NCBI RefSeq assembly: GCF_003386795.1
Contig: NZ_QTUC01000001.1
Coordinates: 3,038,001-3,102,000 of the forward strand
Reading direction: 5' to 3'
Origin: Thermasporomyces composti
GTDB taxonomy: Bacteria > Actinomycetota > Actinomycetes > Propionibacteriales > Actinopolymorphaceae
Length of the DNA stretch: 64,000 bases
Below, piece after piece: positions 8,770-27,296 of the stretch; positions within the stretch are counted from its first letter, which is position 1; the number at the start of each line of letters is the position of its first letter. A model generated the notes under the pieces. That model was not told the DNA's origin, did not search any database, and saw nothing but the letters and a program-made list of their open reading frames with translations. The position numbers were made by a program, and so were the translations under genes.

Positions 8770-9297
8770 TCAGTGGTCGCGTCGCAGTTGCTCGTAGACG
8801 GCGAGGGCGGTCTCGTAGGTGGCTTGCCCGAAGAGCACGAGCCGCGCCTCCGCCACCACCGCGGGTGTGGCGGGCAGCAGGACGCTCAGCGCCTGGCGTA
8901 CCGCGTCGTCGACCGGCCAGCCGTAGATGCCGGCGGAGATCAACGGGAACGCGATGGTGGTCGCCTTCAGCTCGTCGGCGACGTTGAGCGCGTTGGCGTA
9001 GCAGGCGCGCAACAGCTCGCTGCGGTCCTGCGAGGCGCTCCACACGGGGCCGACCGTGTGCACCACCCAGCGCGCCGGGAGCTGACCGGCCGTGGTCGCC
9101 ACCGCCTGCCCAGTCGGGAGCCCGTCGGGGTAACGGGAGGCGCGCAAGGCCTCGCACTCCTTGCGGATGGCCGGGCCGCCAGCCCGGTGGATGGCACCGT
9201 CGACCCCGCCACCGCCGAGCAGGGAGGAGTTCGCGGCGTTGACCACGACGTCGACGACCTGTTTGGTGATGTCGCCCTCGACCAGCTCGACCCGCAT
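8770..9297 (-). CDS. Macrodomain protein, probable O-acetyl-ADP-ribose deacetylase
   Basis: 175 aa from ATG 9297, preceded by GAGGGGGTGAC. Longer upstream readings have no ribosome-binding site. It is a single macrodomain of the MacroD/YmdB type: VNAANSSLLGGGGVDGAIH is the ADP-ribose-binding and catalytic loop, followed by GPAIRKECEAL, GQAVATTAG, VVHTVGPVW and AFPLISAGIYGWP. Members hydrolyse O-acetyl-ADP-ribose or remove ADP-ribose from acidic residues in the cytoplasm. It is monocistronic, divergent from the enolase-superfamily gene at 9417 and convergent with the DUF1275 gene. An ADP-ribosylglycohydrolase-fold gene lies 6 kb away (15133), but nothing links the two directly. Confidence 0.92.
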   Translation of the reverse strand: MRVELVEGDITKQVVDVVVNAANSSLLGGGGVDGAIHRAGGPAIRKECEALRASRYPDGLPTGQAVATTAGQLPARWVVHTVGPVWSASQDRSELLRACYANALNVADELKATTIAFPLISAGIYGWPVDDAVRQALSVLLPATPAVVAEARLVLFGQATYETALAVYEQLRRDH

Positions 9298-12577: not shown

Positions 12578-13543
12578 TTACTCGCCGGCTTCGTTGAGCC
12601 GACGCATCTGGTCCTCGGTCAGCTTCAGGTCAGCGGCGTCGAGCGCCTCGTCGAGCTGGGTGACCGAGCTGGCACCGATCAACGGGATGACGACGGGGTC
12701 GCTGTGGAGCATCCACGCCAGCACGACCTGGTTCGCCGTCGCGCCCGTCTCCTTCGCCACCTCGTGGAGGGCGTCCAGGCGACGCTGGGTGTCGACGGTC
12801 TGGTAGGCCTCGGTGAGCGGCTTGTCCGCGCGGCCGCTGTAGGCGCCGCCCAGCAGCGGCGAGTACGCGATGAGGCGCAGCTCGGGAGTCGAGCGCACGT
12901 AGTCCTGCAGCTCGGGTGTGACCGGTAGCTGCGCGCCGAGATCGGCGTCCGGCTTGGGACGCAGGTAGGAGTGGCGCTGCTGGATGACCGTGTAGGCGGG
13001 CCAGCCGTTGGCCTGGCAGATCTGCCGGGCTCGCTCGATTCGCCACGCCGGGTGATTACTGACGCCGAGCAACCGCACCTTGCCGTCGGCGACCACCTTG
13101 GCGAAGGCGCCGACCTGCTCCTCCAAAGGTGTGCGACGGTCCTCGATGTGCGCGTAGTAGAGGTCGACGTGGTCGGTGCCGAGTCGGCGCAGGCTCTCGT
13201 CGATCTGGGCGCGAATGACCTTCTCCGAGAGGCCTTCGGCGTTGTTGGGGAAGTCTTTGGGATCCCCGTCGGGACGGGCCCCGACCTTGGTCGCGAGGAT
13301 GACGGAGTCGCGGGTGCCACGCTCACGGAACCAGCGACCGAGCAAGGTCTCGCTCTCGTCGCCCCGACCGTCCTTCTCCCAGAACTGGTAGCAGTTCGCG
13401 GTGTCGAGGAAGTTCCCGCCGCGTTCGAGGTAGCGGTCAAGGATGGTGAACGACGTGCTCTCGTCAACCGTTGAGCCGAAGAACATCGTGCCGAGCGCGA
13501 TCGCGCTCACCTCGACGTCCTGGGCGAGGTTGAGGTGTCTCAT
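12578..13543 (-). CDS. Aldo/keto reductase
   Basis: 321 aa, a full-length NAD(P)H-dependent TIM-barrel oxidoreductase. The catalytic tetrad is visible as Asp47 and Tyr52 (FLDTANCYQFW), Lys86 (ILATKVG) and His132 (LYYAHIED). The C-terminal part has the cofactor-binding segment VVIPLIGASSVTQLDEAL. It resembles actinobacterial AKRs that act on sugars or small aldehydes. It sits 79 bp downstream of the sulfatase gene on the same strand, so the two may be co-transcribed and work on the same desulfated sugar, which is an inference from position. Confidence 0.88.
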   Translation of the reverse strand: MRHLNLAQDVEVSAIALGTMFFGSTVDESTSFTILDRYLERGGNFLDTANCYQFWEKDGRGDESETLLGRWFRERGTRDSVILATKVGARPDGDPKDFPNNAEGLSEKVIRAQIDESLRRLGTDHVDLYYAHIEDRRTPLEEQVGAFAKVVADGKVRLLGVSNHPAWRIERARQICQANGWPAYTVIQQRHSYLRPKPDADLGAQLPVTPELQDYVRSTPELRLIAYSPLLGGAYSGRADKPLTEAYQTVDTQRRLDALHEVAKETGATANQVVLAWMLHSDPVVIPLIGASSVTQLDEALDAADLKLTEDQMRRLNEAGE

Positions 13544-13621: not shown

Positions 13622-15061
13622 TCACCGTTCGGTGTCCACCTCGTCGCTCGGAGTGTACGGCGGGTCGCCGATCTCTTTCTGCAGCCGAGCCAGCTCGGCA
13701 GTGAGCTCGGCACGGACCGACGCGTAGGCAGGGTCGTCGTAGACGCTTCGCATCTCCTTCGGGTCGGTCTGGAGGTCGAACAGCTCCCACTCCGGCTCGT
13801 AGCGCTCCGATGACGTGCCGGGGAGGCCGAGGCCGTCGTTGTAGTAGTAGATGAGCTTGTAACGAGGCGTTCGAATGCCGTAGTGGGCGCGCACGTTGTG
13901 GCTGCCGTCGCCGTGCTCCCAGTAGCGGTAGTAGATCCGCTGTGGCCAGTCGTCCGGCGTGACGCCGCGCAGGACCGGTCGGAAGCTCCTGCCCTGCATG
14001 CGCGGGTGCGCCGGAACACCAGCGAAGTCCAAGAACGTCTGGGCGAAGTCGACGTTCGAGATCATCGCCGTCGACACCGAGCCGGCGGGGACCTCCCGCG
14101 GATACCGGACGAGGAACGGCATGCGCAGCGACTCCTCGTACATGAACCGCTTGTCGTACCACCCGTGGTCGCCGAGGAAGAAGCCCTGGTCGGAGGTGTA
14201 GACGACGATCGTGTCGTCGCGGAGCCCTTCGGCGTCGAGGTAGTCCAGCACCCGCCCGACGTTGTCATCCACGCTCGCCACGCAGCGCAGGTAGTCCTTC
14301 ATATACCGCTGGTACTTCCAGTAGGCCTCCTCCTCGGGCGTGAGGCCAGGCGGGACCGGCTCCTTCAGGTCGGTGGGTGTGAGGTCCCGCGCGACCCTCA
14401 TCAACGCGGCTTTGGCGGCCTCCGAGCGGTTGGCGTAGTCGTCGTGGAAGGTCTCCGGCAGCGGGATGTCGGTGTCCGCATAGAGGTGCATGTGTTTCTC
14501 ATCCGGCTCCCACGGGCGATGCGGAGCCTTGTGGTGGACGAGCAAGCAGAACGGTCGGGTCCGGTCCCGGCTGTCCAGCCAGGACAGCGAGAGGTCGGTG
14601 ATGATGTCCGTGGCGTAGCCGTCGAAGCGACGCTCGACCCCGTTATCGAAGAACGTCGGGTTGTGGTAGTCACCTTGGTCTGGCAGGACGACCCAGTGGT
14701 CGAAGCCGCGCGGGTCGTGGTCCGGGCCGTGACCGAGGTGCCACTTGCCCACGATGGCGGTCTGGTAACCAGCGTCCCGCAGCAGCCCGACAAAGGTCGG
14801 TTGACGGTTGTCGAAGTACGTGGAGAGTGTCCGCACGCCGTTGACGTGGCTGTGCGTCCCCGTGAGGATCGTCGCCCGGCTCGGCGCGCACAGCGCGTTC
14901 TGGCAGAAGACGTTGTCCAGGCGCATGCCCTCGCGGGCGAGGCGGTCGATGTGGGGCGTCTCGTTCACCCGGCTCCCGTACGCGCTGATCGCGTGCGCCG
15001 CGTGGTCGTCGGACATGATGAAGACGATGTTGGGGCGACGTGACGAGGACTGATCAGGCAT
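13622..15061 (-). CDS. Type I sulfatase
   Basis: 479 aa from ATG 15061, preceded by GGAAGGAAG; a TTG just upstream is less likely. The N-terminus carries the metal-binding Asp pair (FIMSDDHA, D18/D19). The sulfatase signature is CAPSRATILTG, with Cys58 the residue converted to formylglycine. Further landmarks are GKWHLG, VYTSDQGFFLGDHGWYDKRF and the family C-terminal subdomain. There is no signal peptide, so it should act in the cytoplasm on imported sulfated sugars, or be exported by an unseen route. The formylglycine-generating enzyme is not in the window. It lies just downstream of the ADP-ribosylglycohydrolase-fold gene (71-bp gap), suggesting one transcript with it and the aldo/keto reductase. 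Confidence 0.9.
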   Translation of the reverse strand: MPDQSSSRRPNIVFIMSDDHAAHAISAYGSRVNETPHIDRLAREGMRLDNVFCQNALCAPSRATILTGTHSHVNGVRTLSTYFDNRQPTFVGLLRDAGYQTAIVGKWHLGHGPDHDPRGFDHWVVLPDQGDYHNPTFFDNGVERRFDGYATDIITDLSLSWLDSRDRTRPFCLLVHHKAPHRPWEPDEKHMHLYADTDIPLPETFHDDYANRSEAAKAALMRVARDLTPTDLKEPVPPGLTPEEEAYWKYQRYMKDYLRCVASVDDNVGRVLDYLDAEGLRDDTIVVYTSDQGFFLGDHGWYDKRFMYEESLRMPFLVRYPREVPAGSVSTAMISNVDFAQTFLDFAGVPAHPRMQGRSFRPVLRGVTPDDWPQRIYYRYWEHGDGSHNVRAHYGIRTPRYKLIYYYNDGLGLPGTSSERYEPEWELFDLQTDPKEMRSVYDDPAYASVRAELTAELARLQKEIGDPPYTPSDEVDTER

Positions 15062-15108
15062 CAACTTCCTTCCTCGCGTCTTGGTGTCGAGCGCCGTCGT
15101 GAACGTGT

Positions 15109-15146
15109 CACTGAGTCCCAGGGGAGTGCCACTCAGTCCCAGGGGA
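15109..15146. repeat. 21-bp tandem duplication across a stop codon
   Basis: A 17-nt core, CACTGAGTCCCAGGGGA at 15109-15125, recurs at 15130-15146 with one mismatch (CACTCAGTCCCAGGGGA), a period of 21 bp. The second copy contains the last codons and the TGA of the 15133 gene; the first lies just beyond the stop. It looks like a small slippage duplication. Confidence 0.7.
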
Positions 15147-17091
15147 AGCGAGTCCGGCCGAGGTGCGGTTGGCCGTCACGGAACCGGTCGTCACTGGAGA
15201 TCAGGACGTGGCACTGCGCCGCCGGCGCGTCGGCGTTCCGAACGAGCTTGACGAGCAGCTCGTTCCAGCCGGCGCGCAACGTCACCGAGCTCGCCGAGTC
15301 GGCGCGCCCGCCGTAGTTGGGTCGGATGGGTTGGTACCGCTCGGCGGTGGCCACGTGGTCGTCGTTCACCCAGAACCGCACGGGGCAGTTCGCGTCGACC
15401 GCGAGCCACACGCGCTGCGCCTCCGGCGCGTGGATGAAGCTCTGCACGTAGAGCACGCCGGGTCCGTCGAAGACCTCGTCGAGGGGGAGGGCGTTGTCGT
15501 GCGCCGACAGCTCTCGCCACTCGCCGCCACGGCTGTCCGGCTCCTCGAGCGCGCCGGTCCGCTGCTCGGGCGGGAAAGCAGTGTCGAGCAGCTCGGTGTC
15601 GCTCCGACCGTTCCGGTCGTACGGGCCGCTCACGCGGATGGCCGCGGCGCCGACGAGGACGAGCGGAACGGCCGGCTGCGCGGGGCGTCCGCGTGGCGAC
15701 ACCGCGACGAAGCAGCGGTTGCTGTTGTGGAGGAGAGCGCGTCCGGGTATGTCGATCCGCCAGGTGAGCTCGGTGCGGCCACGCGCGGGAACCTCCACCT
15801 CTTGCGCGGCTGGAGCCTCCCACCCTGTCGGCACGGTCACCGCACAGGTCGCGACGATCGGGTCGGGGTGCGGGTTCGTCAGCGTGGTGACGATGGTCTT
15901 GGTGGTGTCGGGTGCGACCGCTGGCGTGTCGACGTAGTCGACCCCCACGTGCAGGTCGGGTGAGGGGAAGCTCACCAGCGTCGGGCTGGAGTCGCGCAGC
16001 GCGCGCACCTCGTCGTCGGCGTAGAGGTCCGTCTCGGAGACACGCACGACGCCGTCTGCGTCGAGGGCGCCATGGGTGGAGAGCACGGTGCGGGCGACGC
16101 GTCGGATCCGGGTGACGAGCTCGTCCAGGTTGGCCGGGATCGGGTTGTCGCCGTCGGAGAGGTGCCGCACGCCACCCCAGGATTCGTTGGTCGCGATGGT
16201 GTCGCCGAGCGGCTCGATCCACTTCGCGGGCAGGCCGGAGCGTCCGGCGAGGATGCCGAGGTAGCTGCCGATCGCGGCGCCCGAGGAGTCGGTGTCGTAG
16301 CCGCAGTTGACCGTCTTGCAGATGCCGTCGCCGAAGTCCTCGCCGTAGAGCAGGCCGATGACCTGGAAGCCGAGGTTGATGGGGGAGTACTGCGCGTTGT
16401 AGTGAGGCGTGGTCTCCAGCACCCGCCGTCGAGCCGCCTTCCAGTCCAGACCCTCGTCGTGGGCAGCGAGCACGGCGCGGATGGCGGCCGCGGTCTTGCT
16501 GTCGTCGGGGACGTACGACAGGCCGATGTCGACGAGCGCGCGCCGGTCGCTGACGACGAAGGCCGCCGACTCCACCGCGACGTTGAACAGCTCGCCGTAG
16601 ACCGACTCACCACCGGCGTGGTCGCAGATCGCGTCCTGGTAGGCGTACCGAGCCGCCACCCGCGGGGCTGCGGGAGCCACGCACGCCCAGATCTCCGAGC
16701 GGATCGGGCAGCCCATGCAGTCTTTGAACCAGTTGTTGTAGTGGCCGCTGATCGGCGGTTCGAGACCCAGCCGCAGGTTCGTCTTGGACAGGCCGTACTC
16801 GTCGAAGTTGTAGCCCACGTGGTCGAGCCAGTACCTGGCCAAGTCGCGCGCGGACAGGTGAGGGCCGACCTCCTCGAGGGCTTTCAGCCAGGCGAGCTGG
16901 ATCTCGAGATCGTCGTTGGGGAGACCGCCACCGCCCTCGGCGAGCTTCGGGTACCACCACACGTCGAACGGCTCGGGCTCGCCGAACGTCTTCTCCAGCG
17001 GGGTTCCGAGCGTGCCGCCGGCGTTCTTCCCCAGCCAGCACCCGTACACCTTGTCGTAGAAGAGCGGACCCTCGATGTCGAGCTCGAGCAC
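15133..17091 (-). CDS. ADP-ribosylglycohydrolase-fold protein fused to C-terminal beta-sandwich modules
   Basis: 652 aa from GTG 17091, chosen because GGAGGGAG lies 5 nt upstream; the frame stays open to 17253 without another good start. Residues about 5-330 are an ADP-ribosylglycohydrolase (DraG/ARH) domain: YGCWLGKNAGGTLG, the metal site NDDLEIQLAWL (where DraG has TDDT) and GYDTDSSGAAIG (where DraG has DTD). The C-terminal about 300 residues look like an Ig-like domain (VTVPTGWEAPAAQEVEVP) and a jelly-roll module (FWVNDDHVA, LRAGWNELLVKLVRN) of the kind found on glycan-active enzymes. No signal peptide. With a sulfatase and a reductase downstream, a glycan or nucleoside-sugar substrate is as plausible as ADP-ribosyl protein. 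Confidence 0.8.
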   Translation of the reverse strand: MLELDIEGPLFYDKVYGCWLGKNAGGTLGTPLEKTFGEPEPFDVWWYPKLAEGGGGLPNDDLEIQLAWLKALEEVGPHLSARDLARYWLDHVGYNFDEYGLSKTNLRLGLEPPISGHYNNWFKDCMGCPIRSEIWACVAPAAPRVAARYAYQDAICDHAGGESVYGELFNVAVESAAFVVSDRRALVDIGLSYVPDDSKTAAAIRAVLAAHDEGLDWKAARRRVLETTPHYNAQYSPINLGFQVIGLLYGEDFGDGICKTVNCGYDTDSSGAAIGSYLGILAGRSGLPAKWIEPLGDTIATNESWGGVRHLSDGDNPIPANLDELVTRIRRVARTVLSTHGALDADGVVRVSETDLYADDEVRALRDSSPTLVSFPSPDLHVGVDYVDTPAVAPDTTKTIVTTLTNPHPDPIVATCAVTVPTGWEAPAAQEVEVPARGRTELTWRIDIPGRALLHNSNRCFVAVSPRGRPAQPAVPLVLVGAAAIRVSGPYDRNGRSDTELLDTAFPPEQRTGALEEPDSRGGEWRELSAHDNALPLDEVFDGPGVLYVQSFIHAPEAQRVWLAVDANCPVRFWVNDDHVATAERYQPIRPNYGGRADSASSVTLRAGWNELLVKLVRNADAPAAQCHVLISSDDRFRDGQPHLGRTRFPWD

Positions 17092-17343
17092 GGTGTCTCC
17101 CTCCACGCCGCCGGACGGCGGCCGGGTCTGCATCGGCTGCACGACTCGGCGCCCGTCGACCGCCGCAGCCGGAGTGTAGTTCCGGTTCCGCGCTCCCACT
17201 CCCGAGAGGAACCGGCTTGGCCGTGAACGGCACCCTCGCGGGTCGAGGCTCACGAGCCACCGATCCGGGCCCAGGCCGAGCGAGCTAGGGTCCTCGCAGT
17301 GGCGGCAACAGCGCGCCGCCGCCGGTTGGAGGAGCTACGCACC

Positions 17344-18165
17344 ATGAGGAGCCGTGTGGAAGAGGCGGAACGTGCGGACGTCGCGGTCACGTCGAGACCG
17401 GTCCTGCCGTTCTTCGTCCTCGTCGTCCTCCTCTCGGTTCCTCTCTGGGTCCTCGGGTTGTTCGTGGAGAGTCCAGAGGGCACCCCGATGGACCTTCCGG
17501 TGAGTGCTCTCATGTTCGCCTGCCCGTTTCTCGCCGCGTGGATCATGCTGTGGCGGCAGGGCTCGGCCGGTGAGATCCGTCACCTGCTCAGGCGAGCGGT
17601 GGATCCCCGAACAGTTCGGCCCAGAACGTGGTATTTCCCCACGTTCCTGACGATCCCGGTGATCGTCGCCGCCGTCGACTGGTGTTTGCGGCTTACTGGC
17701 AGCGCGGATGGAGAGCGCGGCTCGATCGCCGCGCTGCCTCTGCTTCTCGTGCTGTTCCTCGTCAGCGCCGTCGGCGAGGAAACGGGCTGGATGGGCTACG
17801 CCGTGGAGCCGATGCGGGCCCGGTGGGGTGCACTCGTCGCGGGCCTGTTCATCGGCGCGTTCTGGGCGATCTGGCACGTGCTGCCGTTGGTCCAGGCGGA
17901 CCGGTCGTTCGTCTGGATCGCTTGGTGGTTCCTCGGCACGGTCGCCCTTCGCGTGCTCATCGTGTGGCTCTACGTCAACGCCGGGCGATCCGTCGTCGTG
18001 GCGGTGATCGTCCACGCGTTCGTCAACGTGGGGATGGTCCTCCTTCCGGACTACACCACCCACGTCGCTCCCGTCGCGTTGTTCGGCTGCCTCTCCGCGC
18101 TCTCCGCGCTCGTCGTGACGGTCTTGTGGGGCCCGACCTTGGCCCGCTTCCGTCTCCGCAGCTGA
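17344..18165 (+). CDS. CPBP-family intramembrane metalloprotease
   Basis: 273 aa from ATG 17344, preceded by GGAGGAG at a 9-nt spacing; the frame also runs back to GTG 17299. About eight hydrophobic segments. CPBP/ABI motifs are in order: the Glu pair in GEETGWMGYA, FWAIWHVLPL (His) and VIVHAFVNVGMVLL (His). Members include CAAX-type proteases and immunity or processing proteins; the physiological substrate is unknown. The gene is isolated, about 90 bp from the divergent end of the ADP-ribosylglycohydrolase-fold gene's upstream region. Confidence 0.85.
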   Translation: MRSRVEEAERADVAVTSRPVLPFFVLVVLLSVPLWVLGLFVESPEGTPMDLPVSALMFACPFLAAWIMLWRQGSAGEIRHLLRRAVDPRTVRPRTWYFPTFLTIPVIVAAVDWCLRLTGSADGERGSIAALPLLLVLFLVSAVGEETGWMGYAVEPMRARWGALVAGLFIGAFWAIWHVLPLVQADRSFVWIAWWFLGTVALRVLIVWLYVNAGRSVVVAVIVHAFVNVGMVLLPDYTTHVAPVALFGCLSALSALVVTVLWGPTLARFRLRS

Positions 18166-18228
18166 CCGTCTGTGGTCCGGCGTCACCTTTCACACGTCCC
18201 CGAGCCCGGAGGTCGACAGCCTGAGCGC

Positions 18229-19056
18229 TCAGCCCTTGTAGGTGAGCACACGACCCCACGTGCTGGCGGTGCCCCAGATGCCCGCGCGCATGCTCTCCAG
18301 CTGCACGATCTGGCTGTGGTCGATGAACAAGTTGACCTCGGGACCGTAGCTCTTGACGTACCAGGCGAACACCTCCGGGTCAGCGGCTTCGAACATCACG
18401 TGCTCGATCCCGATCTCGCTGGCGATTCGCGCGACCACGTCGGTGCGCCAGGTCCGCACGCTCTCGGTGATGCCCTCGGACTCGATCATGACCAGGTGCG
18501 CGCCGGCCTCCAGGTGGCGGCGGATGAGCGCGATCGCCGCGGTCACGTCGCGCGTGCCCTCCGCCTCGAGCGCTTCTGCGGTCGTGGTTCCGCCGGCGCC
18601 GAACTGGATCCCGACCTCGGGCTTCGCCTCCAGGCCCATCTCGCGGACCCGGTCGGCGAGCCGGACCAGGTCGTCCGGCGACATCATGACGAAGCCGTTC
18701 GACACCTCCACGATGTCGAACCCGAGGTCGCGGCATTCGCGCAGGTAGTCGTCCACGGCGGCAGGCCCTTGGGTGACGACGTACTCGAGGAAGCCGCCGG
18801 TGGAGACCCGCACGTCGTAGCGGTGGGCGAGGTCGATGAGGGATCGCAGAGCAGAGCGGGGCATGAGGCTGAACGAGCCGCCGGCGAACTTGAGGATGTC
18901 GACGTACTCGCCCATCGTCTCCAGGACGTCCGCCAGGTAGCGGGGCCCCATGACGCTGTAGTACGGCCCACGGATTTCGGTCAGACCCCGCGAACGCGGT
19001 TTGGACTCGCGCTGGTTGCGACGGATGCCGGTGAACACCCGCTCGTCCTTGGTCAT
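18229..19056 (-). CDS. Phosphosulfolactate synthase (ComA)-family protein
   Basis: 275 aa. The sequence follows the ComA/PSL-synthase TIM barrel: GPYYSVMGPRYLADVLE, YVDILKFAGGSFSLMP, VSTGGFLEYV, GFDIVEVSNGF, EAKPEVGIQFGAGG, LVMIESEGI, FEAADPEVF and INLFIDHSQIVQLE-like NLFIDHSQIV. The archaeal enzyme adds sulfite to phosphoenolpyruvate to give phosphosulfolactate. Many bacterial and plant homologues have no proven reaction. The gene's ATG overlaps the TGA of the upstream MmgE/PrpD gene by the 4-bp ATGA, so the two should be translated together. No other coenzyme M gene is present, so coenzyme M synthesis is unlikely here. Confidence 0.82.
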   Translation of the reverse strand: MTKDERVFTGIRRNQRESKPRSRGLTEIRGPYYSVMGPRYLADVLETMGEYVDILKFAGGSFSLMPRSALRSLIDLAHRYDVRVSTGGFLEYVVTQGPAAVDDYLRECRDLGFDIVEVSNGFVMMSPDDLVRLADRVREMGLEAKPEVGIQFGAGGTTTAEALEAEGTRDVTAAIALIRRHLEAGAHLVMIESEGITESVRTWRTDVVARIASEIGIEHVMFEAADPEVFAWYVKSYGPEVNLFIDHSQIVQLESMRAGIWGTASTWGRVLTYKG

Positions 19057-20453
19057 GGCCGGTCCTCCCTTCCGAGATGACGGGCGATCGCCCCGTTCAG
19101 GTCGGCCAGCAGGCTGGTCACGTCGGCTCGGGACGCGTCGTCGAGCTGACGGACCCGTTCGGCGACATCCGCGGTGGCCGGCTGTCCGAGCACCGGCTCG
19201 GCGAGCCGGGTGAACTTCTCCGTCACGGTGTCCCAGCTCATCGGGCGGGTGTGGAATCCCTCGTAGTCCCGCTTGTCCGCGGTGAGAGAGCGGCCGTCGC
19301 GCAGGCGGACCGTCAACCGACAGGCATGGTGGTCGGGAAACAGGTGGGACAGATCGTCGGCCGGGTGGATGTGGACGCGCCGCAGCAGCTGTTGGACGTC
19401 GTCGGCGGCGATGCGCTCGGGAGCGTACTGAGCGGGGAGGACCTGACCGTCCAGGGCGGCCACCGCGAGCAGGTAGGGCAGCGAGTGGTCGGCCTCCTCC
19501 TTGGTCCGGACTCGTGTCTTGTCGCCCTCGGCGCCGCCGCCGATGATGTCGTAGGCCACGTCGAAGGTCTCGAGCTCGATCCGCTCGACGTCGGAACCGG
19601 TGAAGCCGTCCCGCTCACGAAGCTCGAGCAGGGCCTCGATCGCCGATTGCGAGTGGACCTCGGCGTTGTAGCGCTTGAGGACGGTGCGTTCGACCCTGTC
19701 CGGCTTCTCGTCGGCCCACTGGATGGTGAACCGCCCGCTGATGGTGTCCATGAAGCCTTTCGCTCCCTCGAACACCTCCGCCGGGCCGGTGATGCCTCGC
19801 CGGGCGAGGAAGGCCGCCCACGTCGCGGCCGCGGTCGCCTGTGGCGCGGCGAGCCCTTTCCAGTGGGAGAGCCGGCCGGTACGGGTCACCCGCAAGGCGT
19901 GGAAGGCGGTTCCCGCGATGGCGATCGCGTTGGCCGTTTGTTCCAGGTCGAGCCCGAGTGCCTTGGCCACGCCCGCGGCGGCCGAGAACGTGAGGTGGGT
20001 GACGTGGTCGAAACCTCGGGCCCGCACCGGCGCTTCGTCGGCCAACCGGCACTGCACCTGGTAGGCGACGGCGAGAGCGGTGAGCAGGGCGGGTCCGTCG
20101 CCGTCCCCGCACTCCCATCCGGCGAGGACGGCGGCGAGGTTGTCGCTTGGGTGGCAGGTCTCACCCGGCGCGAGGTAGCTGTCGTTGAAGTCGAGGTAGC
20201 GAACGAGGAACCCGTTGGCGAGCGCGGCCCGGTCCGGCGCCGAGCGACCGAGGCCCAACACGGTGCACAGCGGGTTCCCGCCGAACTCGGCGATGGCGTC
20301 GTAGACGAGCCGGACCGGCGTGGCGTCGACAGCGCCGATGGCGCAGCCGAGCGAGTCCAGGACGCGGATCTTCAGCTGGTCGACGGCGCGCGACGAGAGG
20401 TCGTCGAACGAGGTGGCCAGGACGAACCGGGTGAGGTCGTCGACGACGCTCAT
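19053..20453 (-). CDS. MmgE/PrpD-family protein (2-methylcitrate dehydratase-like)
   Basis: 466 aa from ATG 20453, which overlaps the stop of the preceding AhpD-like gene by ATGA. Full-length MmgE/PrpD fold: an all-helical domain with LDSLGCAIGA, FLVRYLDFNDSYL, CHPSDNLAAVLA and HLTFSAAAGVAKALGLD, then GTAFHALRVTRTGRLSHWKG and AKGFMD, followed by the smaller C-terminal domain. The family includes 2-methylcitrate dehydratase, cis-aconitate decarboxylase and iminodisuccinate epimerase. No methylcitrate-cycle genes (prpB/prpC) lie nearby, so propionate catabolism is not indicated. Its coupling on both sides to an AhpD-like and a ComA-like gene suggests a different hydroxy-acid substrate. Confidence 0.87.
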   Translation of the reverse strand: MSVVDDLTRFVLATSFDDLSSRAVDQLKIRVLDSLGCAIGAVDATPVRLVYDAIAEFGGNPLCTVLGLGRSAPDRAALANGFLVRYLDFNDSYLAPGETCHPSDNLAAVLAGWECGDGDGPALLTALAVAYQVQCRLADEAPVRARGFDHVTHLTFSAAAGVAKALGLDLEQTANAIAIAGTAFHALRVTRTGRLSHWKGLAAPQATAAATWAAFLARRGITGPAEVFEGAKGFMDTISGRFTIQWADEKPDRVERTVLKRYNAEVHSQSAIEALLELRERDGFTGSDVERIELETFDVAYDIIGGGAEGDKTRVRTKEEADHSLPYLLAVAALDGQVLPAQYAPERIAADDVQQLLRRVHIHPADDLSHLFPDHHACRLTVRLRDGRSLTADKRDYEGFHTRPMSWDTVTEKFTRLAEPVLGQPATADVAERVRQLDDASRADVTSLLADLNGAIARHLGREDRP

Positions 20454-20800
20454 CCATCGTCCCCCGAGGGAGACGTCTCGGCGAGCGCGTGCATGGCGAT
20501 CGCGGAGTGGGCGTAGGCGGCGCCCGCACGCATCTCGATCGCCACCCAGATCGCTTCCATGATCTCTTCGGGGCTGGCTCCGGCGCGACGAGCGAGTTTC
20601 GTGTGACCGTCGATGCAGGTCGGACACTGGGTGACGTGCGCGGCCGCGACGGCGATGAGCTGCTTGGTCTTGGTCGGCAGCGCGCCGTCGGCGAAGACGG
20701 CCCGCCCCAGCTCCTCGAAGGCTCGATGGGGCTCTGGTGCGAGCTCCGCGCGCCGGCTCGCGAGCTCCGGAGTCATCGGACGGTACGGGTTTTCCGGCAT
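20450..20800 (-). CDS. Carboxymuconolactone decarboxylase/AhpD-like protein
   Basis: 116 aa with an excellent ribosome-binding site (GGAGGGG). All-helical CMD fold. The redox-type motif CPTCIDGH (CxxC plus a nearby His) places it with AhpD-like alkylhydroperoxidases rather than true gamma-carboxymuconolactone decarboxylases. The motif follows KTKQLIAVAAAHVTQ, as usual in the family. It is the first gene of a three-gene coupled unit; its TGA overlaps the ATG of the MmgE/PrpD gene. It could protect a partner enzyme from peroxide or act as a small lyase; neither can be decided from sequence. Confidence 0.88.
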   Translation of the reverse strand: MPENPYRPMTPELASRRAELAPEPHRAFEELGRAVFADGALPTKTKQLIAVAAAHVTQCPTCIDGHTKLARRAGASPEEIMEAIWVAIEMRAGAAYAHSAIAMHALAETSPSGDDG

Positions 20801-20867
20801 CCCACCACCCCTCCTCTGCCGTATCTGCTGCTCGCGTCAGAGGCGCCGCAAACCCGCCGGAACGACG

Positions 20868-20905
20868 ACCGCGCCTGGCACGACAGCGGTCGTGCCAGGC
20901 GCGGT
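20868..20905 (-). terminator. Perfect 17-bp hairpin ending the cyd operon
   Basis: The arms ACCGCGCCTGGCACGAC (20868-20884) and GTCGTGCCAGGCGCGGT (20889-20905) are fully complementary with a 4-nt loop. The hairpin follows the last gene of the cydABDC-orf operon by 37 bp and precedes the promoter region of the AhpD-like gene, insulating the two same-strand units. There is no clear U-tract. Confidence 0.8.
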
Positions 20906-20941
20906 TGGGGAGGGGCACCAGCGACGGGTTGGGTACGGGAG

Positions 20942-21373
20942 TCAGGTGGCGAAGAGCGAGATGCCGAGCGCCACCAGGACGAGGACCTTCACCGACTCCA
21001 GCGCGACGTACACGTGGTGCATCCGGGAGCGGGGAAGGTGGTCCTCGCCCGCGAGCACGCGGTCCGACCGACGGTTGAGGGGCGGACGAACGCCGAGGAG
21101 CTGGACGGCGAGGAGCCCTACCACAGCCGCTGTCAGCGCGGTCGTGACGCCGGAGACGTCTCCCAACGCGACGCCGATCAGCAGGAGGAGGGCGAGGGCG
21201 ATCTCGGCGGTGTTGAGCGCCCGGAAGACGATGCGTCCGATGCCCAGGCCGAGGCGAAGCGTGATGCCTGGGGCGCGGAACTTCAGCGGCGCCTCCATGA
21301 AGGAGATCGCCAGGACCATGCCCAGCCACACGAAGGTGGTCGCAGTCGCGAGTGCGGCCGCCGCGTCGTTCAT
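20942..21373 (-). CDS. Small four-helix membrane protein of unknown function
   Basis: 143 aa, with GGAGGAGAG just before the ATG. About four hydrophobic helices: FVWLGMVLAISFMEAPLKF, FRALNTAEIALALLLLIGVAL, TALTAAVVGLLAVQLLGV and VLVLVALGISLF. A charged loop (RRSDRVLAGEDHLPRSRMHH) separates the third and fourth. I do not recognise a characterised family. It starts 42 bp after cydC on the same strand, and the next strong hairpin lies after it, so it is probably transcribed with the cytochrome bd genes. That suggests a membrane role under the same conditions, but nothing more specific. Confidence 0.75.
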   Translation of the reverse strand: MNDAAAALATATTFVWLGMVLAISFMEAPLKFRAPGITLRLGLGIGRIVFRALNTAEIALALLLLIGVALGDVSGVTTALTAAVVGLLAVQLLGVRPPLNRRSDRVLAGEDHLPRSRMHHVYVALESVKVLVLVALGISLFAT

Positions 21374-21415
21374 CTCTCCTCCAAGGTGGTCAGCGCGTGG
21401 GGGTTGTCGGCGCGG

Positions 21416-23191
21416 TCACGTCGAGCGTGGGACACCGTGGTCGGCGGGGATCGCGAGGACGCGGTCCTGGAGTCGTTCGGCTTCCCACCACGACCGGTAC
21501 AGGGTCGGCCGCGCCATGAGCTCGGCGTGACTGCCCCGCTCGACCACGCGTCCGGCGTCGAGGACCAGGATCTCGTCCACGTTCTCCAACCCGGCCAGTC
21601 GGTGGGTGACCAGCAGCGTCGTCCGGCCGACGGTGGCGTCCAGCAGGTCGGCGGTGAGCTGGTCGGCGTTCGCCACGTCCAGGTGCGCGGCGGGCTCGTC
21701 GAGGAGCAGGATCGGGAAATCCGCGAGCAGGGCGCGCGCGAGCGCGATCCGTTGCCGCTGCCCACCGGAGACCTGGCTTCCGTGCTCGCCGACGGGTGTG
21801 TCCAGCCCGTGGGGTAGGGATTCCACCCATTCCAGCAGGCGAGCCCGACGGAGCGCGTCGCGGAGCTCGTCGTCGGTCGCGGAGCGGCGAGCGAGACGAA
21901 TGTTCTCCCCGATCGTCGTGTCGAACAGGTGCGCGTCCTGCGCGCACAGCCCCACGACCTTTCGCACGTCCTCCCCGCGCAGGGTCCGCAGGTCGACACC
22001 GTTCAACGTCACCGTTCCGCTCGAAGGCTCGAGGAACCGGAGCAGGACCGCTGTCAACGTTGACTTGCCGGAGCCGCTTGGCCCGACCACCGCGTAGCGA
22101 CGTCCCGGCTCCAGGGTGAGCGACACCCCGTCGAGGACGTCCGGACCGTCCGGCGTCCAGCGGGCACGCAGGTCCTCGATGGTGAGCACGTAGGGCGCGT
22201 CGGGAAGCGCGGCGGGCTGGGTCGGCTCCTGGACCGGCTCAGGAAGCTCGAGGACGGCGTCGATGCGGCTCGCCGACCGCCGGGTCCGCTCGATGGCCTG
22301 GGCGGCGAGGGGGAGGCCGGCCATCACCTCCGAGACCGCCAGCGGGAGGAGGACCACGACCGCGAGCAGGACACCGTCGAGTCGCCCGGACCGGACTGCT
22401 GGGACCCCGACGGCGAGCCCGCCCCACACGGCCAGACCGCCGGCCAGGGTGGTCAACGCGGCGCCGAGGCCGGCGGTGAGCGCTGACCGTGCCGATGCCC
22501 GGGTCAGGGAGCGGTCCAGCCGAGCCGCCTCGGTCAGCCGGGTCGCCGCGACGCCGTAGGCGATCAGCTCAGGCGCGCCGTGCAAGGTGTCGACGACGTG
22601 CGCGGTCAGCTCGCCGCGCAGGTCGGCCATGCGCCGCTCGGCGCTCTTGGCCACGGCGGCGGACACCCATGGCGCGAGGACGCCGGCGACGAGGAGGGCG
22701 ACGAGCAGGATCACACCCGCCTCGGGCAGCAGCGCCCAGGCCAGACCGACCGACGCGCCACCGACGATCGCGGCGACCGCGTAGGGCAGCAGGGTCCGCA
22801 GGTAGAGGTCTTGGATGGCGTCGACGTCGGCGACGAACCGTCCCAGCAGGTCGCCGGAGCGGAACACCGGCAGCCCGGTCGGTGCGAGCCGTTCCAGACG
22901 CTGGTAGACCGTGGCCCGGAGGTCGGCGAGGATCCGGAACGTCGCGTCGTGGCTCACGAGGCGTTCGAGGTACCGGAAGACGCCTCGGGCGATGCCGAAC
23001 GCCCGGACAGCCACGATGGCGACCATGAGCAGGAGCACTGGCGGGTGCTGGGCGGCGCGCGAGATCAGCCAGGCCGACGTCGCCATGAGTCCGACGCCTG
23101 ACCCCAGCGCGAGGGCGCCGAGCCCCACCGCGAGCGCGAGCCGGGCCCGAGGTACCCGGACCAGCCGGAGGATCCGCACGATCGGGGTCAT
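21416..23191 (-). CDS. cydC: Thiol reductant ABC exporter subunit CydC
   Basis: 591 aa ABC half-transporter: six N-terminal membrane segments, then an ATPase domain with Walker A GPSGSGKST, signature [14 protein letters not shown] and Walker B ILLLDEPAAHLD. CydDC exports cysteine and glutathione (low-molecular-weight thiols in actinobacteria) and is needed for maturation of cytochrome bd. Its start overlaps the end of cydD by ATGA (23188-23191). Length is normal for the family. Position as fourth gene of the cyd operon supports CydC rather than a generic exporter. Confidence 0.92.
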   Translation of the reverse strand: MTPIVRILRLVRVPRARLALAVGLGALALGSGVGLMATSAWLISRAAQHPPVLLLMVAIVAVRAFGIARGVFRYLERLVSHDATFRILADLRATVYQRLERLAPTGLPVFRSGDLLGRFVADVDAIQDLYLRTLLPYAVAAIVGGASVGLAWALLPEAGVILLVALLVAGVLAPWVSAAVAKSAERRMADLRGELTAHVVDTLHGAPELIAYGVAATRLTEAARLDRSLTRASARSALTAGLGAALTTLAGGLAVWGGLAVGVPAVRSGRLDGVLLAVVVLLPLAVSEVMAGLPLAAQAIERTRRSASRIDAVLELPEPVQEPTQPAALPDAPYVLTIEDLRARWTPDGPDVLDGVSLTLEPGRRYAVVGPSGSGKSTLTAVLLRFLEPSSGTVTLNGVDLRTLRGEDVRKVVGLCAQDAHLFDTTIGENIRLARRSATDDELRDALRRARLLEWVESLPHGLDTPVGEHGSQVSGGQRQRIALARALLADFPILLLDEPAAHLDVANADQLTADLLDATVGRTTLLVTHRLAGLENVDEILVLDAGRVVERGSHAELMARPTLYRSWWEAERLQDRVLAIPADHGVPRST

Positions 23192-24843
23192 GACGCCACC
23201 CCCACAGGCTCCAGGCGCACCACCCGGTTGGCCAGCGCGACGAGCGCGGGTCGATGCGCGACGAGGAGGACGGTCCGGCCCGCCGCCAAGCGAGCGACGG
23301 CCTCGGTGACGGCTGCCTCACTGTCCTGGTCGAGGTTCGACGTCGGCTCGTCCAACAGCAGCAGCGGGGCGTCGCGGAGGAAGGCGCGTGCGAGCGCGAT
23401 CCGCTGTCGCTGTCCCGCGGAGAGCCCGGCTCCTCGGTCACCGAGCCGGGTCGCGAAGCCTTGGGGCAGCGCCTCGACGAACGCCAGCGCGTTGGCCGCC
23501 TCGGCGGCACGGCGCACCTCGTCGTCGGTGGCGTCTGGCCGCCCCAGGCGAATGTTGTCGGCCACCGTGCCGGCGAACAGGTAGGGGCGCTGGGGGACCC
23601 AGGCGATACGCGACCGCCACACGTCGGGGTCGAACTCGGCGATGTCCACCCAGTCGGCGAGCACGTGCCCGCTGGTCGGCCGGACGAACCCGAGGAGAAG
23701 AGCCAGCACGGTGGACTTGCCGGAGCCGCTGGGGCCGACGAGCGCGACGGTCTCGCCGGGATGCACGGTGAGGGAGAAGTTCTCCAGGGCCGGTGTCTCC
23801 CGGCCTTCGTAGGTGACGGTCACCGACTCCAGGCGAAGGGTGGCCCGCGCGAGGTCCGGGACGTCGGTGCGTGTGCCAGGCGCCGGGGTCGGTGTCTCGA
23901 TGACCTCGAAGACCCGCTCGGCGGCGGTGAGGCCCTCGACGCTCGCGTGGTACTGCGCGCCGACCTGACGCAGCGGGAGGTACGCCTCGGGCGCGAGGAC
24001 GAGGATGAGCAGAGCGGTCCTGAGGTCCACGGCGCCGTGGAGCAGGCGCAAGCCGATGGAGACCGCGACGAGGGCGACCGAGATCGTCGACAGCAGCTCG
24101 AGGACGAGCGCGGAGAGGAAGGCGACCCGCAGGGTGGACATGGTCGCCTTGCGGTAGCTGTCGGTGACCTCGCGAATGGTCCGCGCCTGGGCCTTCGCAC
24201 GGCCGAAGACCTTCAGGGTCGGCAAACCGGCCACGACGTCGAGGAAGTGCCCGGCGAGCTTGGACAACGTCCGCCACTGGCGATCCATCTTCCAGCGGGT
24301 GGTGATGCCGACGAGGATCGCGAAGATCGGGATGAGCGGCAGGGTCAGCGCGATGGTGAGGGCCGACAGCCAGTCGTCGAGCAGGATGCGGAAGCCCACG
24401 GCGGCCGGCACGATCACCGCGAGCACCAGCTGCGGCAGGTAGCGGGAGAAGTAGCCGTCCAGCGCGTCCACACCGCGGGTCGCGAGGGTCGCCAGCTCAC
24501 CGCTGCGCTCGCCGACGAGCCAGCGCGGGCCGAGCCGCATCGCGTGCTCGAGGAGGCGTTCCCGAAGCTGGGACTTCACCGCCGCCGACGAGCGGTGCGC
24601 CGCCACCTCCTGCAGCCACGCGACGAACGCCCGAGCGGCCACCACACCGAGGAGCAGCAGGAAAGGTGTCCGCAGGGTGTCGAGGGAGGCCCCGCCGAGG
24701 TACGCCCGGCTCACCGTGTCCGCGAGCAGGGTCGCTTGCGCGATGACCAGCCCGGCGGTGGCGCTGCCGAGGAGGACGGAGAGGAGAAGGTAGCCCCGGG
24801 TGGTCCGGGCGTACCTCAGCAAGCGGGGGTCGAGTGGTTTCAT
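23188..24843 (-). CDS. cydD: Thiol reductant ABC exporter subunit CydD
   Basis: 551 aa ABC half-transporter. Membrane domain with the CydD-type start KPLDPRLLRYAR, and GPRWLVGERSGELATLATRGVDALDGYFSRYLPQL-like features (LVGERSGELATLATRG is visible). The ATPase domain has GPSGSGKST, LSAGQRQRIALARA and LLLLDEPTSNLD. It forms a heterodimer with CydC. ATG overlaps the stop of cydB (24840-24843), and its own stop overlaps the start of cydC, so cydB-cydD-cydC are translationally chained and should be made in fixed ratio. Confidence 0.92.
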   Translation of the reverse strand: MKPLDPRLLRYARTTRGYLLLSVLLGSATAGLVIAQATLLADTVSRAYLGGASLDTLRTPFLLLLGVVAARAFVAWLQEVAAHRSSAAVKSQLRERLLEHAMRLGPRWLVGERSGELATLATRGVDALDGYFSRYLPQLVLAVIVPAAVGFRILLDDWLSALTIALTLPLIPIFAILVGITTRWKMDRQWRTLSKLAGHFLDVVAGLPTLKVFGRAKAQARTIREVTDSYRKATMSTLRVAFLSALVLELLSTISVALVAVSIGLRLLHGAVDLRTALLILVLAPEAYLPLRQVGAQYHASVEGLTAAERVFEVIETPTPAPGTRTDVPDLARATLRLESVTVTYEGRETPALENFSLTVHPGETVALVGPSGSGKSTVLALLLGFVRPTSGHVLADWVDIAEFDPDVWRSRIAWVPQRPYLFAGTVADNIRLGRPDATDDEVRRAAEAANALAFVEALPQGFATRLGDRGAGLSAGQRQRIALARAFLRDAPLLLLDEPTSNLDQDSEAAVTEAVARLAAGRTVLLVAHRPALVALANRVVRLEPVGVAS

Positions 24844-25871
24844 GACACCAGCTCACGGCTCGGGGTCGACTGCGTGGGCTCCTGAGGGATGTGGGCGACG
24901 CCGATCCGCTTCCGGAAGACCCAGTACGTCCAGCCCTGGTAGAGCAGGACCAGGGGCGTGAAGATGACCGCGACGACCGTCATGATCGTCAGCGTGTAGG
25001 GCGTCGCCGCGGCGTTCGTCGTGGTGAGGCTGTTCCCGGGGATGGTCGACGGCATCACGTTCGGGTACAGCGCGAGGAAAAGCGTGACGACGGCGGCGAC
25101 GATGGCGGTACCGGTGCCGATGAACGCCCAGCCCTCGCGGCCTCGGGTGTTGGCGAGGGCCGCGCCGACGAGCCCGGCCGCCGCGACGGCGACGGTGAGC
25201 CAGGTCACCGGCTTGCCGTACTGGAGCTGGGTGAGGAGGAGGAAGAGACCGCCCGCGGCGATCGCGGCGGCGACCACCACCGACGCGACCCGGCTGGCCC
25301 GCTCCCGCACCTCACCGGTCGTCTTCAGGGCCAGGAACACCGCGCCGTGCAGCACGAACAGGGCCAGTGTGACGAGCCCGCCGAGCAGGGCGTAGGGGTT
25401 CACCAGGTCGAGCAGGGAACCGGCGTACTCGTGGTTGTCGTCGAGCGGGACGCCGCGGACGATGTTGGCGAACGCCACGCCCCACAGGACGGCGGGAACG
25501 AGGCTGCCCCAGAAGATGGCCTGGTCCCACCGGCGCCGCCAGCGAACGTCGTCCTTCTTCCCGCGGTACTCGAACGCGACGCCCCGCACGATGAGCGCGA
25601 GCAGGATCGCCAGCAGGGGCAGGTAGAAGCCGCTGAAGAGGGTGGCGTACCACTCGGGGAACGCGGCGAACGTGGCGCCTCCGGCGACGAGGAGCCAGAC
25701 CTCGTTGCCGTCCCAGACTGGCCCGATCGTGTTGATCAGCACTCGCCGCTCGGTGTCGTCGCGGCCGAGGACCGGGAGGAGGATGCCGACGCCGAAGTCG
25801 AACCCCTCGAGGAAGAAGTAGCCGATCCAGAGGAAGGCGATGATGACGAACCAGACAGTGGTGAGCTCCAT
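24840..25871 (-). CDS. cydB: Cytochrome bd oxidase subunit II
   Basis: 343 aa, about nine hydrophobic helices. Typical CydB features are FFLEGFDFGVGILLP near the start, IGPVWDGNEVWLLVAGGATFAAFP, and FSGFYLPLLAILLALIVRGVAFEYR. A charged cytoplasmic loop contains RGKKDDVRWRRRWDQAIF. It pairs with CydA to form the quinol:oxygen oxidoreductase, which reduces oxygen to water with high affinity and does not pump protons. It begins 15 bp after cydA with GGAAGG upstream, and ends in a 4-bp overlap with cydD. Confidence 0.95.
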   Translation of the reverse strand: MELTTVWFVIIAFLWIGYFFLEGFDFGVGILLPVLGRDDTERRVLINTIGPVWDGNEVWLLVAGGATFAAFPEWYATLFSGFYLPLLAILLALIVRGVAFEYRGKKDDVRWRRRWDQAIFWGSLVPAVLWGVAFANIVRGVPLDDNHEYAGSLLDLVNPYALLGGLVTLALFVLHGAVFLALKTTGEVRERASRVASVVVAAAIAAGGLFLLLTQLQYGKPVTWLTVAVAAAGLVGAALANTRGREGWAFIGTGTAIVAAVVTLFLALYPNVMPSTIPGNSLTTTNAAATPYTLTIMTVVAVIFTPLVLLYQGWTYWVFRKRIGVAHIPQEPTQSTPSRELVS

Positions 25872-25886
25872 GGGTCGGCACCTTCC

Positions 25887-27296
25887 TTAGTAGGCGAACG
25901 TGAGGGCGCGGTCGGAGTCGTCCTTGGCGGTGTCGGAGTCCGGCAGGACCTCCGCCTCCGTCGGGGGGCCTTGCTTGGCGAACCGGACCATGAGGCCCGC
26001 CTCGATGACCGCGAGCACGCCGTACAGGACGGTCAGCGCGATGAGGGAGATGAGCATGGAGGCGGCGGTGACGCCGGGGGAGAGGCTGGCCGAGGTCTTC
26101 AGCACGCCGTAGACGGCCCAGGGCTGGCGGCCCATCTCGGTGAAGATCCAGCCGACGGAGTTGGCGATGAACGGCAGGGCCAGCGAGAGGACACCGATCC
26201 TCCAGACCCAGCGGTTCTTGGGCAGCCGTCCCCGTCGGATCAGCCACAGGCCGACGAGCGCGAGGCCGGCGGTGAGGAAGCCGATGCCGACCATGAGCCG
26301 GAACGTCCAGTACGTGACCGGGATGATCGGGCGGTAGTCGCCGGGACCGTACGTTTCCTGCGCGGCGGCTTGGAGGTCGTTGATGCCTTCGACCTTGCCG
26401 TCGAAGTCGCCGGTGGCGAGGAAGGAGAGCACCTTCGGCACCCGGACGCTGAAGACCTCCTCGCTGCCGTCGAGCGTGCCGACGGTGAACAGGGAGAACG
26501 CCGCGGGCTGCTCGGTCTCGTACAGGGCCTCAGCCGCCGCCATCTTCATCGGCTGCTGCTCGGTCATGAGCTTGCCCTGGAGGTCACCGCTCACCGCCAC
26601 GCCGAGGGAGGCGATGAGCGTGACGACCAGGGCCATCTTCAGCGACGGCCGGAAGACCTCGACGTGCTTGCCGCGGGCGAGGTGCCAGGCGCTGATCCCG
26701 ACGATGAACAGCCCCGCGGTGAGGTAGGACGCCGCGATGGTGTGCGGGAACGTGGTGAGCATCGTCGAGTTGGTCAGCACCGCCACGAAGTCGGTGAGCT
26801 CGGCGCGGCCGGTGGCCTCGTTGATGCGGTAGCCGACCGGGTGCTGCATCCAGGAGTTGGCCGCGAGGATGAAGTACGCCGAGAGCGTCGTGCCCAGCGC
26901 GACCATCCACATGCACGCGGCGTGGAGCTTCTTCGGCAGCTTGTCCCACCCGAAGATCCACAGGCCGAGGAACGTCGACTCCATGAAGAAGGCGAGCAGT
27001 CCCTCGATCGCAAGGGGTGCGCCGAAGATGTCGCCGACGAACCGGGAGTACTCCGACCAGTTCATGCCGAACTGGAACTCCTGGACGATCCCGGTGACGA
27101 CGCCCATCGCGAAGTTGATGAGGAAGAGCTTCCCCCAGAACTTCGTGGCCCGCAGGTAGGCGACCTTGCCGGTACGGATCCACGCGGTCTCGAGACCGGC
27201 GACGAGAGCGGACAGGCCGATCGTCAGGGGGACGAAGAGGAAGTGGTAGACGGTGGTGATCCCGAACTGCCACCGCGCGATGTCGAGTGGGTCCAT
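25887..27296 (-). CDS. cydA: Cytochrome bd oxidase subunit I
   Basis: 469 aa; ATG 27296 with GGGGAGG 7 nt upstream. About nine membrane helices. Haem ligands by alignment with the E. coli protein are His18 (TTVYHFLFVPLTIG) and His185 (TTFPHTIAAS); Glu98 and Glu106 (AIEGLLAFFMESTFLGLW) match the conserved proton-path glutamates. The quinol-binding Q loop is short (the 'S' type), running up to GDYRPIIPVTYWTFRLMVGIG-like sequence. First gene of cydA-cydB-cydD-cydC-orf. The promoter region carries a palindrome array (27330-27372) that probably binds a repressor. Confidence 0.96.
   Translation of the reverse strand: MDPLDIARWQFGITTVYHFLFVPLTIGLSALVAGLETAWIRTGKVAYLRATKFWGKLFLINFAMGVVTGIVQEFQFGMNWSEYSRFVGDIFGAPLAIEGLLAFFMESTFLGLWIFGWDKLPKKLHAACMWMVALGTTLSAYFILAANSWMQHPVGYRINEATGRAELTDFVAVLTNSTMLTTFPHTIAASYLTAGLFIVGISAWHLARGKHVEVFRPSLKMALVVTLIASLGVAVSGDLQGKLMTEQQPMKMAAAEALYETEQPAAFSLFTVGTLDGSEEVFSVRVPKVLSFLATGDFDGKVEGINDLQAAAQETYGPGDYRPIIPVTYWTFRLMVGIGFLTAGLALVGLWLIRRGRLPKNRWVWRIGVLSLALPFIANSVGWIFTEMGRQPWAVYGVLKTSASLSPGVTAASMLISLIALTVLYGVLAVIEAGLMVRFAKQGPPTEAEVLPDSDTAKDDSDRALTFAY

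Follow-up and report, generated by a model that had tools for sequence, protein, structure and literature searches.

A widespread pairing of a ComA-like protein with an MmgE/PrpD-family protein, found in an operon of Thermasporomyces composti

What pathway could join a ComA-like protein, an MmgE/PrpD-family protein and an AhpD-like protein in a single operon? The question is raised by three overlapping genes in a 64,000-nucleotide stretch of the Thermasporomyces composti genome (contig NZ_QTUC01000001.1, positions 3,038,001 to 3,102,000), here called the window, whose numbering we use throughout. The first gene is referred to as CMD, the second as MmgE-A and the third as ComA-A:

20450-20800, minus strand: CMD/AhpD-like gene, first of the operon, 116 amino acids, with a CPTCIDGH motif
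19053-20453, minus strand: MmgE/PrpD-family gene MmgE-A, second of the operon, 466 amino acids
18229-19056, minus strand: ComA-like TIM-barrel gene ComA-A, third of the operon, 275 amino acids
20450-20453, minus strand: ATGA overlap of the CMD stop and the MmgE-A start, read from the sequence
19053-19056, minus strand: ATGA overlap of the MmgE-A stop and the ComA-A start, read from the sequence

The core of this trio is the pair formed by MmgE-A and ComA-A, a conserved two-enzyme module in which the CMD gene is recurrent but optional. No description of the module, and no paper joining phosphosulfolactate synthase with MmgE, was found in the open-access literature searched (titles and abstract starts, with subscription journals mostly outside). 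On the minus strand of the window, CMD runs from an ATG at 20800 to a TGA ending at 20450, MmgE-A from an ATG at 20453 to a TGA ending at 19053, and ComA-A from an ATG at 19056, which bears out both ATGA junctions described in the original prediction for this locus. A 758-amino-acid open reading frame listed for MmgE is an in-frame upstream extension of the 466-amino-acid protein. All three proteins score over the Pfam cut-offs for their families (CMD, PF02627, 79.4 bits; MmgE-A, PF03972, 235.2 bits, and PF19305, 150 bits; ComA-A, PF02679, 275.1 bits). The genome (4.37 Mb, one contig) encodes one ComA, one MmgE/PrpD and three CMD proteins, so the meeting of the three genes is not explained by their abundance. 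Operons often have ATGA overlaps; it is the conservation of the arrangement across loci, rather than the overlap itself, that exceeds chance.

Relatives of ComA-A were collected in a scan with one genome per species, in which 80 of the 85 loci found were kept, their proteins being 51-74% identical to that of the window. Together with five plasmids and seven actinobacterial stretches they form a pool of 92 loci, which excludes the window and in which one locus was entered twice (L065 and L166). An MmgE protein of more than 44% identity adjoins ComA-A in 73 of the 92. The paired genes are on the same strand in 72 loci and at most 100 bases apart in 59; with start codons chosen by our own gene caller, they overlap in 14 and have the same four-base overlap in seven. 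Five of the 19 loci that have no adjoining MmgE-A are at contig ends. Among the 15 of these 19 whose genomes were searched whole, four have an MmgE of 58-59% identity elsewhere. In a haloarchaeon (L102), an MmgE of 42-43% identity that bears the signature of the clade lies about 5 kb downstream of ComA-A.

The same association was seen in a phylum sample of 396 genomes, with PF02679 present in 38, of which 30 were fetched and eight are unclassified. Nine of the 30, T. composti included, carry ComA-A. An MmgE of at least 60% identity is present in eight genomes, all eight of which have ComA-A, so that MmgE-A accompanies eight of the nine ComA-A genes, and the ninth genome has a truncated MmgE piece beside ComA-A. 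The next MmgE matches, at most 45% identical, fall in genomes without ComA-A (at most four candidates were scored per genome). Additionally, distances among ComA-A proteins correlate with those among MmgE-A proteins (r = 0.86, 73 rows, 0 of 2000 permutations as high; r = 0.80, 66 rows, without haloarchaea and outliers), a correlation to which shared host descent contributes. Because of this co-occurrence, adjacency and correlated divergence, MmgE-A and ComA-A very probably act together. The original prediction, which assigned the three genes to a shared pathway and suggested looking for their co-occurrence across genomes, holds in this respect for the pair and not for CMD, which is near the pair in 16 of the 92 loci.

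The bearers of ComA-A, by record titles, are Thermogemmatispora and other Ktedonobacteria, Chloroflexi, Acidobacteria, Planctomycetes, Nitrospirae, Manganitrophus, Verrucomicrobia, Armatimonadetes, Gracilimonas/Fodinibius (Balneolota), Rubrobacter, haloarchaea and others; some phylum names go further than those titles. Plasmids also carry ComA-A, among them ones from Methylosinus, Methylocystis, Salinibacter and haloarchaea. Five such plasmid regions were examined, and in them it is annotated as 'phosphosulfolactate synthase' and has an 'MmgE/PrpD family protein' adjoining or, in one, 1.7 kb upstream. In locus L107, ComA-A near 8001-8809 is split over two frames by a frameshift or sequencing error. 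A trio restricted to this strain, or a ComA-like gene with unrelated neighbours elsewhere, had been named as grounds for doubting a pathway; the pair instead spans many bacterial phyla, haloarchaea and plasmids, and unrelated neighbours are contradicted by the 73 of 92 loci in which ComA-A adjoins MmgE. Within the order of T. composti, ComA-A is patchy, and because this genome alone (one of 57) carries it, the gene was probably acquired horizontally.

Does ComA-A then catalyze the ComA reaction, as the original prediction supposed in pointing to sulfite and phosphoenolpyruvate (PEP) or a phosphosulfolactate-like compound? The fold is kept. An AlphaFold2 model of ComA-A (predicted local distance difference test score, pLDDT, 90.4) is closest to 1qwg (Z 29.6, root-mean-square deviation 2.0, 242 residues aligned), with 1u83 at Z 27.5. 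The 50 fold matches listed are headed by those to ComA (Z 27.5-29.6); pyruvate carboxylase transferase domains, considered as another nearest enzyme, trail at Z 15, and such similarity shows no function. A long branch (approximate likelihood ratio support, SH-aLRT, 100) splits the ComA-A clade (83 rows) from canonical ComA (23 rows, including M. jannaschii ComA and the Xanthobacter Py2 homologue), and ComA-A scores 105.7 on the TIGR03849 equivalog, a model of archaeal ComA with a cut-off of 280.

The residues point the same way. Lys137 and Arg170 (M. jannaschii ComA, or MjComA, numbering), present in 23/23 canonical rows, are replaced by Gln151 and Glu194 in 94/94 rows of the clade, and Arg244, also in 23/23 canonical rows, by Trp261 in 93/94, the other row having a gap. 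Further switches, again in MjComA numbering, are Q212 to F, N227 to F and W46 to G, and the loop after Arg170 is shorter. K43, D40, E79, E103, E133, E168, E205 and R240 (MjComA) are common to both groups; in its own numbering ComA-A retains K56, E91, E117, E147, E192 and E223 and has gained R29 and K145. In the model, residues 151 and 194 come after strands 143-148 and 189-191 of the barrel, on the side where the active site usually lies. In canonical ComA, Lys137, Arg170 and Arg244 presumably serve PEP/sulfite binding. Because they are replaced, sulfite/PEP chemistry and a role in coenzyme M synthesis are unsupported for ComA-A, and a phosphosulfolactate synthase it probably is not. Loss of these active-site residues had also been named as a ground for doubt, and it holds insofar as they serve PEP/sulfite. 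With fewer positive residues overall, ComA-A may be suited to a less anionic substrate.

MmgE-A presents a different case, with a familiar catalytic set and an altered pocket. Its AlphaFold2 model (pLDDT 94.0) has the fold of PrpD, cis-aconitate decarboxylase and iminodisuccinate (IDS) epimerase, at Z 39.5-43.6. D91, H101, H150, K199 and E265 are retained in 49/49 rows and H267 in 46/49; D91, H101, H150, K199 and H267 correspond to residues that we take to be catalytic in the MmgE/PrpD family. In haloarchaeal MmgE-A (L102, L104, L181, L182), H267 is Tyr and the other checked residues are kept. MmgE-A has two additional Gly, at 305-306, compared with PrpD. It scores 153.4, 130.1 and 109.3 on PrpD equivalogs with cut-offs of 950, 575 and 458, and PrpDs standing beside PrpB also fall below (e.g., 212.4 against 950 and 158 against 575). 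The part of a study of E. coli PrpD drawn on here reports that the enzyme dehydrates 2-methylcitrate without rehydration, that it takes citrate too, about 12-fold less efficiently than AcnB, and that its methyl pocket comprises W110, G111 and I331, substitutions there lifting citrate efficiency by at most 3.1-fold (PMC9468356). At these positions MmgE-A has Thr (47/49; Ser in two), Cys (43/49) and then Ile, while the first two are W/G in PrpD of E. coli, Salmonella and B. subtilis and Pro/Ala in six prpDBC-type rows. Judged by these residues and by the PrpB census given below, MmgE-A may prefer a substrate without a methyl group, and it is unlikely to serve propionate.

The company that the pair keeps offers a further source of evidence. 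The window CMD protein is AhpD-like and has a redox CxxC, as had been read from the sequence: the motif is CPTC, and ahpD_dom (TIGR00778) scores 75.4 against a cut-off of 27.8. CMD homologues occur beside the pair in other phyla. When pooled, CMD makes up 19 of 616 near genes and 4 of 409 far genes (p 0.018). Ten non-Balneolota CMD genes, not all independent, lie near the pair against 0.59 expected, a figure based on 16 genomes totalling about 87 Mb, in which 93 CMD domains were matched and some of which were picked for a nearby CMD. A Pfam tally of 141 of 168 selected same-strand neighbours, from a flank list that excludes six near-copy loci, placed CMD first (8 members), followed by DUF488 (5) and DUF2249 (4), among the best 25 of 168 matching families. 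Clusters found at most four genes from the pair comprise DUF488 (13 loci), a second CMD type (12), an 80-amino-acid family named DUF2249-like by likeness (9), RIC-like proteins (9), the window's CMD type (7), an IclR-type regulator (7), multicopper-oxidase-domain proteins (6), DsbA-like proteins (5) and Rrf2 (4). No third conserved enzyme was found, the recurrent neighbours being CMD, DUF488, DUF2249-like, RIC-like and regulator genes. A grouping of loci by ComA identity chained 58 of the 92 into one group and was not used.

Some loci place the pair beside genes for iron-sulfur (Fe-S) repair and stress. In two haloarchaea (L102 and L103), ComA-A is directly 3' of RIC with SufB nearby in one stretch; in L102, RIC scores 225.9 bits (cut-off 204.7) and SufB 716.6 (cut-off 346.4), and SufB is followed by MmgE-A, a single small predicted gene intervening or overlapping. 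ComA-A is divergent from Rrf2 and SufB in L090, and DUF2249 and CRP-type regulator genes are upstream in L077. Cytochrome bd genes adjoin the trio in the window and the pair in two actinobacterial loci related to each other (L167/L168). Of the 92 loci, 13 have RIC-like genes (12 loci) or SufB (three) in the vicinity; the RIC-like protein scored from Balneolota reached 54.9 and fell short of the RIC cut-off. Such neighbours are found in a minority of loci, partly interrelated, and are a lead rather than proof.

We tentatively propose that MmgE-A and ComA-A are consecutive Fe-S-free enzymes of one short pathway; the substrates, direction, metal and physiological role are ones that we infer. MmgE-A, an enzyme of the PrpD kind, would dehydrate (or rehydrate) a citrate-like hydroxy acid, and ComA-A, with its Glu-lined TIM barrel, would convert the unsaturated product, in the simplest case by hydrating it. 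The likeliest specific reactions would be citrate to and from cis-aconitate for MmgE-A and cis-aconitate to and from isocitrate for ComA-A, letting cells pass the aconitase step once its [4Fe-4S] cluster has been damaged by nitric oxide (NO) or oxidants. Where present, CMD would be an accessory thiol-redox protein. Such a two-step route on a citrate-like acid, bypassing damaged aconitase, is possible rather than probable. In its fullest form, a horizontally spread, Fe-S-independent two-enzyme aconitase that sustains tricarboxylic acid (TCA) or glyoxylate flow when NO or oxidants destroy the Fe-S enzyme, the idea is more doubtful.

Several observations weigh against this proposal. Aconitase-family genes are kept in 29/29 genomes, that of T. 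composti included (the family also covers LeuC), and replacement of a missing aconitase by the pair is unsupported on the same count. Relative to canonical ComA, ComA-A is short of three positive residues and has a Glu more, unlike the site expected for a tricarboxylate, yet it has gained R29 and K145. By identity, the nearest MmgE outside the clade (43-45%) belongs not to PrpD but to an uncharacterised subfamily without ComA. The IclR-type regulators, upstream in seven loci, are equally compatible with a catabolic role. Nine of the 13 loci with RIC-like genes or SufB form one related group (Balneolota), and neither gene is among those identified beside the window's trio. Within loci, near-versus-far enrichment of single neighbour families is weak at best (p 0.04-0.42; control families, ABC and SDR, p 0.64-0.67). 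Finally, no MmgE-A was found in 10 of the 15 genomes searched whole, nine of them metagenome-assembled and the tenth a complete chromosome of Halosimplex aquaticum; in three of the ten (L093, L098, L101), the 42-43% matches are PrpD-like, and the one of them that was tested (L137) sits with PrpB and 2-methylcitrate/citrate synthase.

The best placed of the alternatives, plausible though short of probable, is that the pair performs dehydration followed by addition or isomerisation on some other hydroxy or unsaturated acid, such as a toxic acid or damage product arising under NO or oxidative stress, or a catabolic intermediate, with CMD as a thiol peroxidase or decarboxylase. The pairing itself fits this equally, as do the CMD, DUF488 and DsbA-like neighbours and the IclR-type regulators; the less anionic substrate suggested for ComA-A and the persistence of aconitase (missing in 0/29 genomes) also speak for it. 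The fully kept PrpD catalytic set, however, favours a citrate-like acid, and no pair-specific transporter or catabolic enzyme appears among the recurrent neighbour families (most neighbours were not individually annotated). Alternatively, the pair might bypass another Fe-S dehydratase, for example isopropylmalate isomerase, again without Fe-S. The same context argument applies and the reaction type, dehydration and rehydration, is the same, but no leu gene is among the 25 neighbour families listed and the names of the solved MmgE-A relatives refer to substrates of the citrate, aconitate or iminodisuccinate type, which leaves this unlikely.

Less likely again is membership of the methylcitrate cycle, with MmgE-A as 2-methylcitrate dehydratase and ComA-A as 2-methylaconitate hydratase. 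Besides the PrpD-like catalytic set, one locus speaks for it: in L073 (7959-11636), which has no MmgE-A, PrpB and an E. coli-type PrpD come after ComA-A in the same orientation. This order was seen in no other locus among those annotated. PrpB over the cut-off was found in 8 of the 26 bearer genomes searched and is missing in 18, and T. composti has none over the cut-off; six of the 26 have no match whatsoever, and some have one below the cut-off (e.g., 286 and 280 against 354). Two of the genomes counted, G026 and G666, appear to be one species. Where prpDBC was identified (L133), MmgE-A is a separate copy, and Manganitrophus has MmgE-A plus a separate prpDBC-type PrpD. Because the methyl pocket is replaced and PrpB over the cut-off is missing in most bearers searched, a methylcitrate role is unlikely, and the census together with the separate copies weakens it. 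Least probable of all is that ComA-A truly synthesizes phosphosulfolactate or another sulfonate and that MmgE-A dehydrates this product, the idea of the original prediction, since the PF02679 match and the 1qwg-like fold are outweighed by the separate clade, the score far under the cut-off of the archaeal TIGR03849 model, the three replaced residues insofar as they serve PEP/sulfite, and the lack of coenzyme M genes among recurrent neighbours.

In the window, the trio lies between a row of minus-strand genes that includes cytochrome bd and a gene of opposite orientation:

24840-25871, minus strand: cytochrome bd subunit II, context outside the module
25887-27296, minus strand: cytochrome bd subunit I, context outside the module
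within 21416-27296, minus strand: two ABC-transporter genes, taken for cydDC from their position alone
20942-21373, minus strand: gene of 143 codons, unmatched in Pfam and NCBIfam, lying between the trio and the cytochrome bd genes
20868-20905, minus strand: hairpin of 17 bp without a U-run, in the 144-nucleotide gap that separates the trio from its upstream gene (z -2.73 for the gap as a whole)
17299-18165, plus strand: CAAX-protease-like gene, downstream of the trio
15133-17253, minus strand: ADP-ribosylglycohydrolase-domain protein with a long C-terminal part
13622-15064, minus strand: sulfatase (SGSH-type)
12578-13543, minus strand: aldo/keto reductase

The last three form a minus-strand row beyond the CAAX-protease-like gene. 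The hairpin may separate transcription units, and because it stands before the CMD start, the trio is probably a unit of its own. Neither a sigma70-type promoter nor a canonical terminator turned up at the trio in a pattern scan, the hairpin not scoring as a terminator, and Rfam gave no match in window positions 17000-22000.

Whatever acid the pair acts on, the clade labelled 'phosphosulfolactate synthase' in public plasmid records very probably has another role, and sulfonate or coenzyme M metabolism may thus be mispredicted in many genomes. Through its tight pairing with a PrpD-like protein, ComA-A marks out a short pathway, open to testing, that spans bacteria and archaea. Should this pathway prove to replace aconitase without Fe-S, it would account for the survival of central metabolism under nitrosative or oxidative damage in some microbes.

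Compared with known systems, ComA-A shares its fold with canonical ComA (M. jannaschii 1qwg, B. subtilis 1u83, Xanthobacter Py2) but is only 25-31% identical to it; the Xanthobacter Py2 plasmid homologue has different neighbour genes, whereas ComA-A adjoins MmgE. MmgE-A has its fold and the family catalytic residues in common with PrpD of both the E. coli and the prpDBC type. The prpDBC-type enzymes are 37-43% identical to MmgE-A, whose partner is ComA-A instead; the tested loci of such PrpDs (L133, L137, L175) have PrpB over the cut-off and, in two, a citrate-synthase-family gene, the other rows being assigned to this type by gene size only. Cis-aconitate decarboxylase/IRG1 and IDS epimerase share the fold at a level with PrpD (Z 42-44) but match MmgE-A less well by sequence (57-70 and 40 bits, against 103 for PrpD, the best match in the PDB). 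The uncharacterised MmgE subfamily (L173, L174), 43-45% identical, has a GGLCHPADN motif, changes at R188/R191 and several altered active-site residues; a PF02679 search of the phylum sample found no ComA in these two genomes, and the L174 gene stands beside LysR and DUF2127 genes. The window CMD has the PF02627 and ahpD_dom core and the CxxC of the AhpD/CMD family but falls under the cut-off of the AhpD subfamily (24.1 against 191.95). Aconitase, a protein unrelated to the pair that requires a [4Fe-4S] cluster, resembles it in function only, through the overall reaction that we propose.

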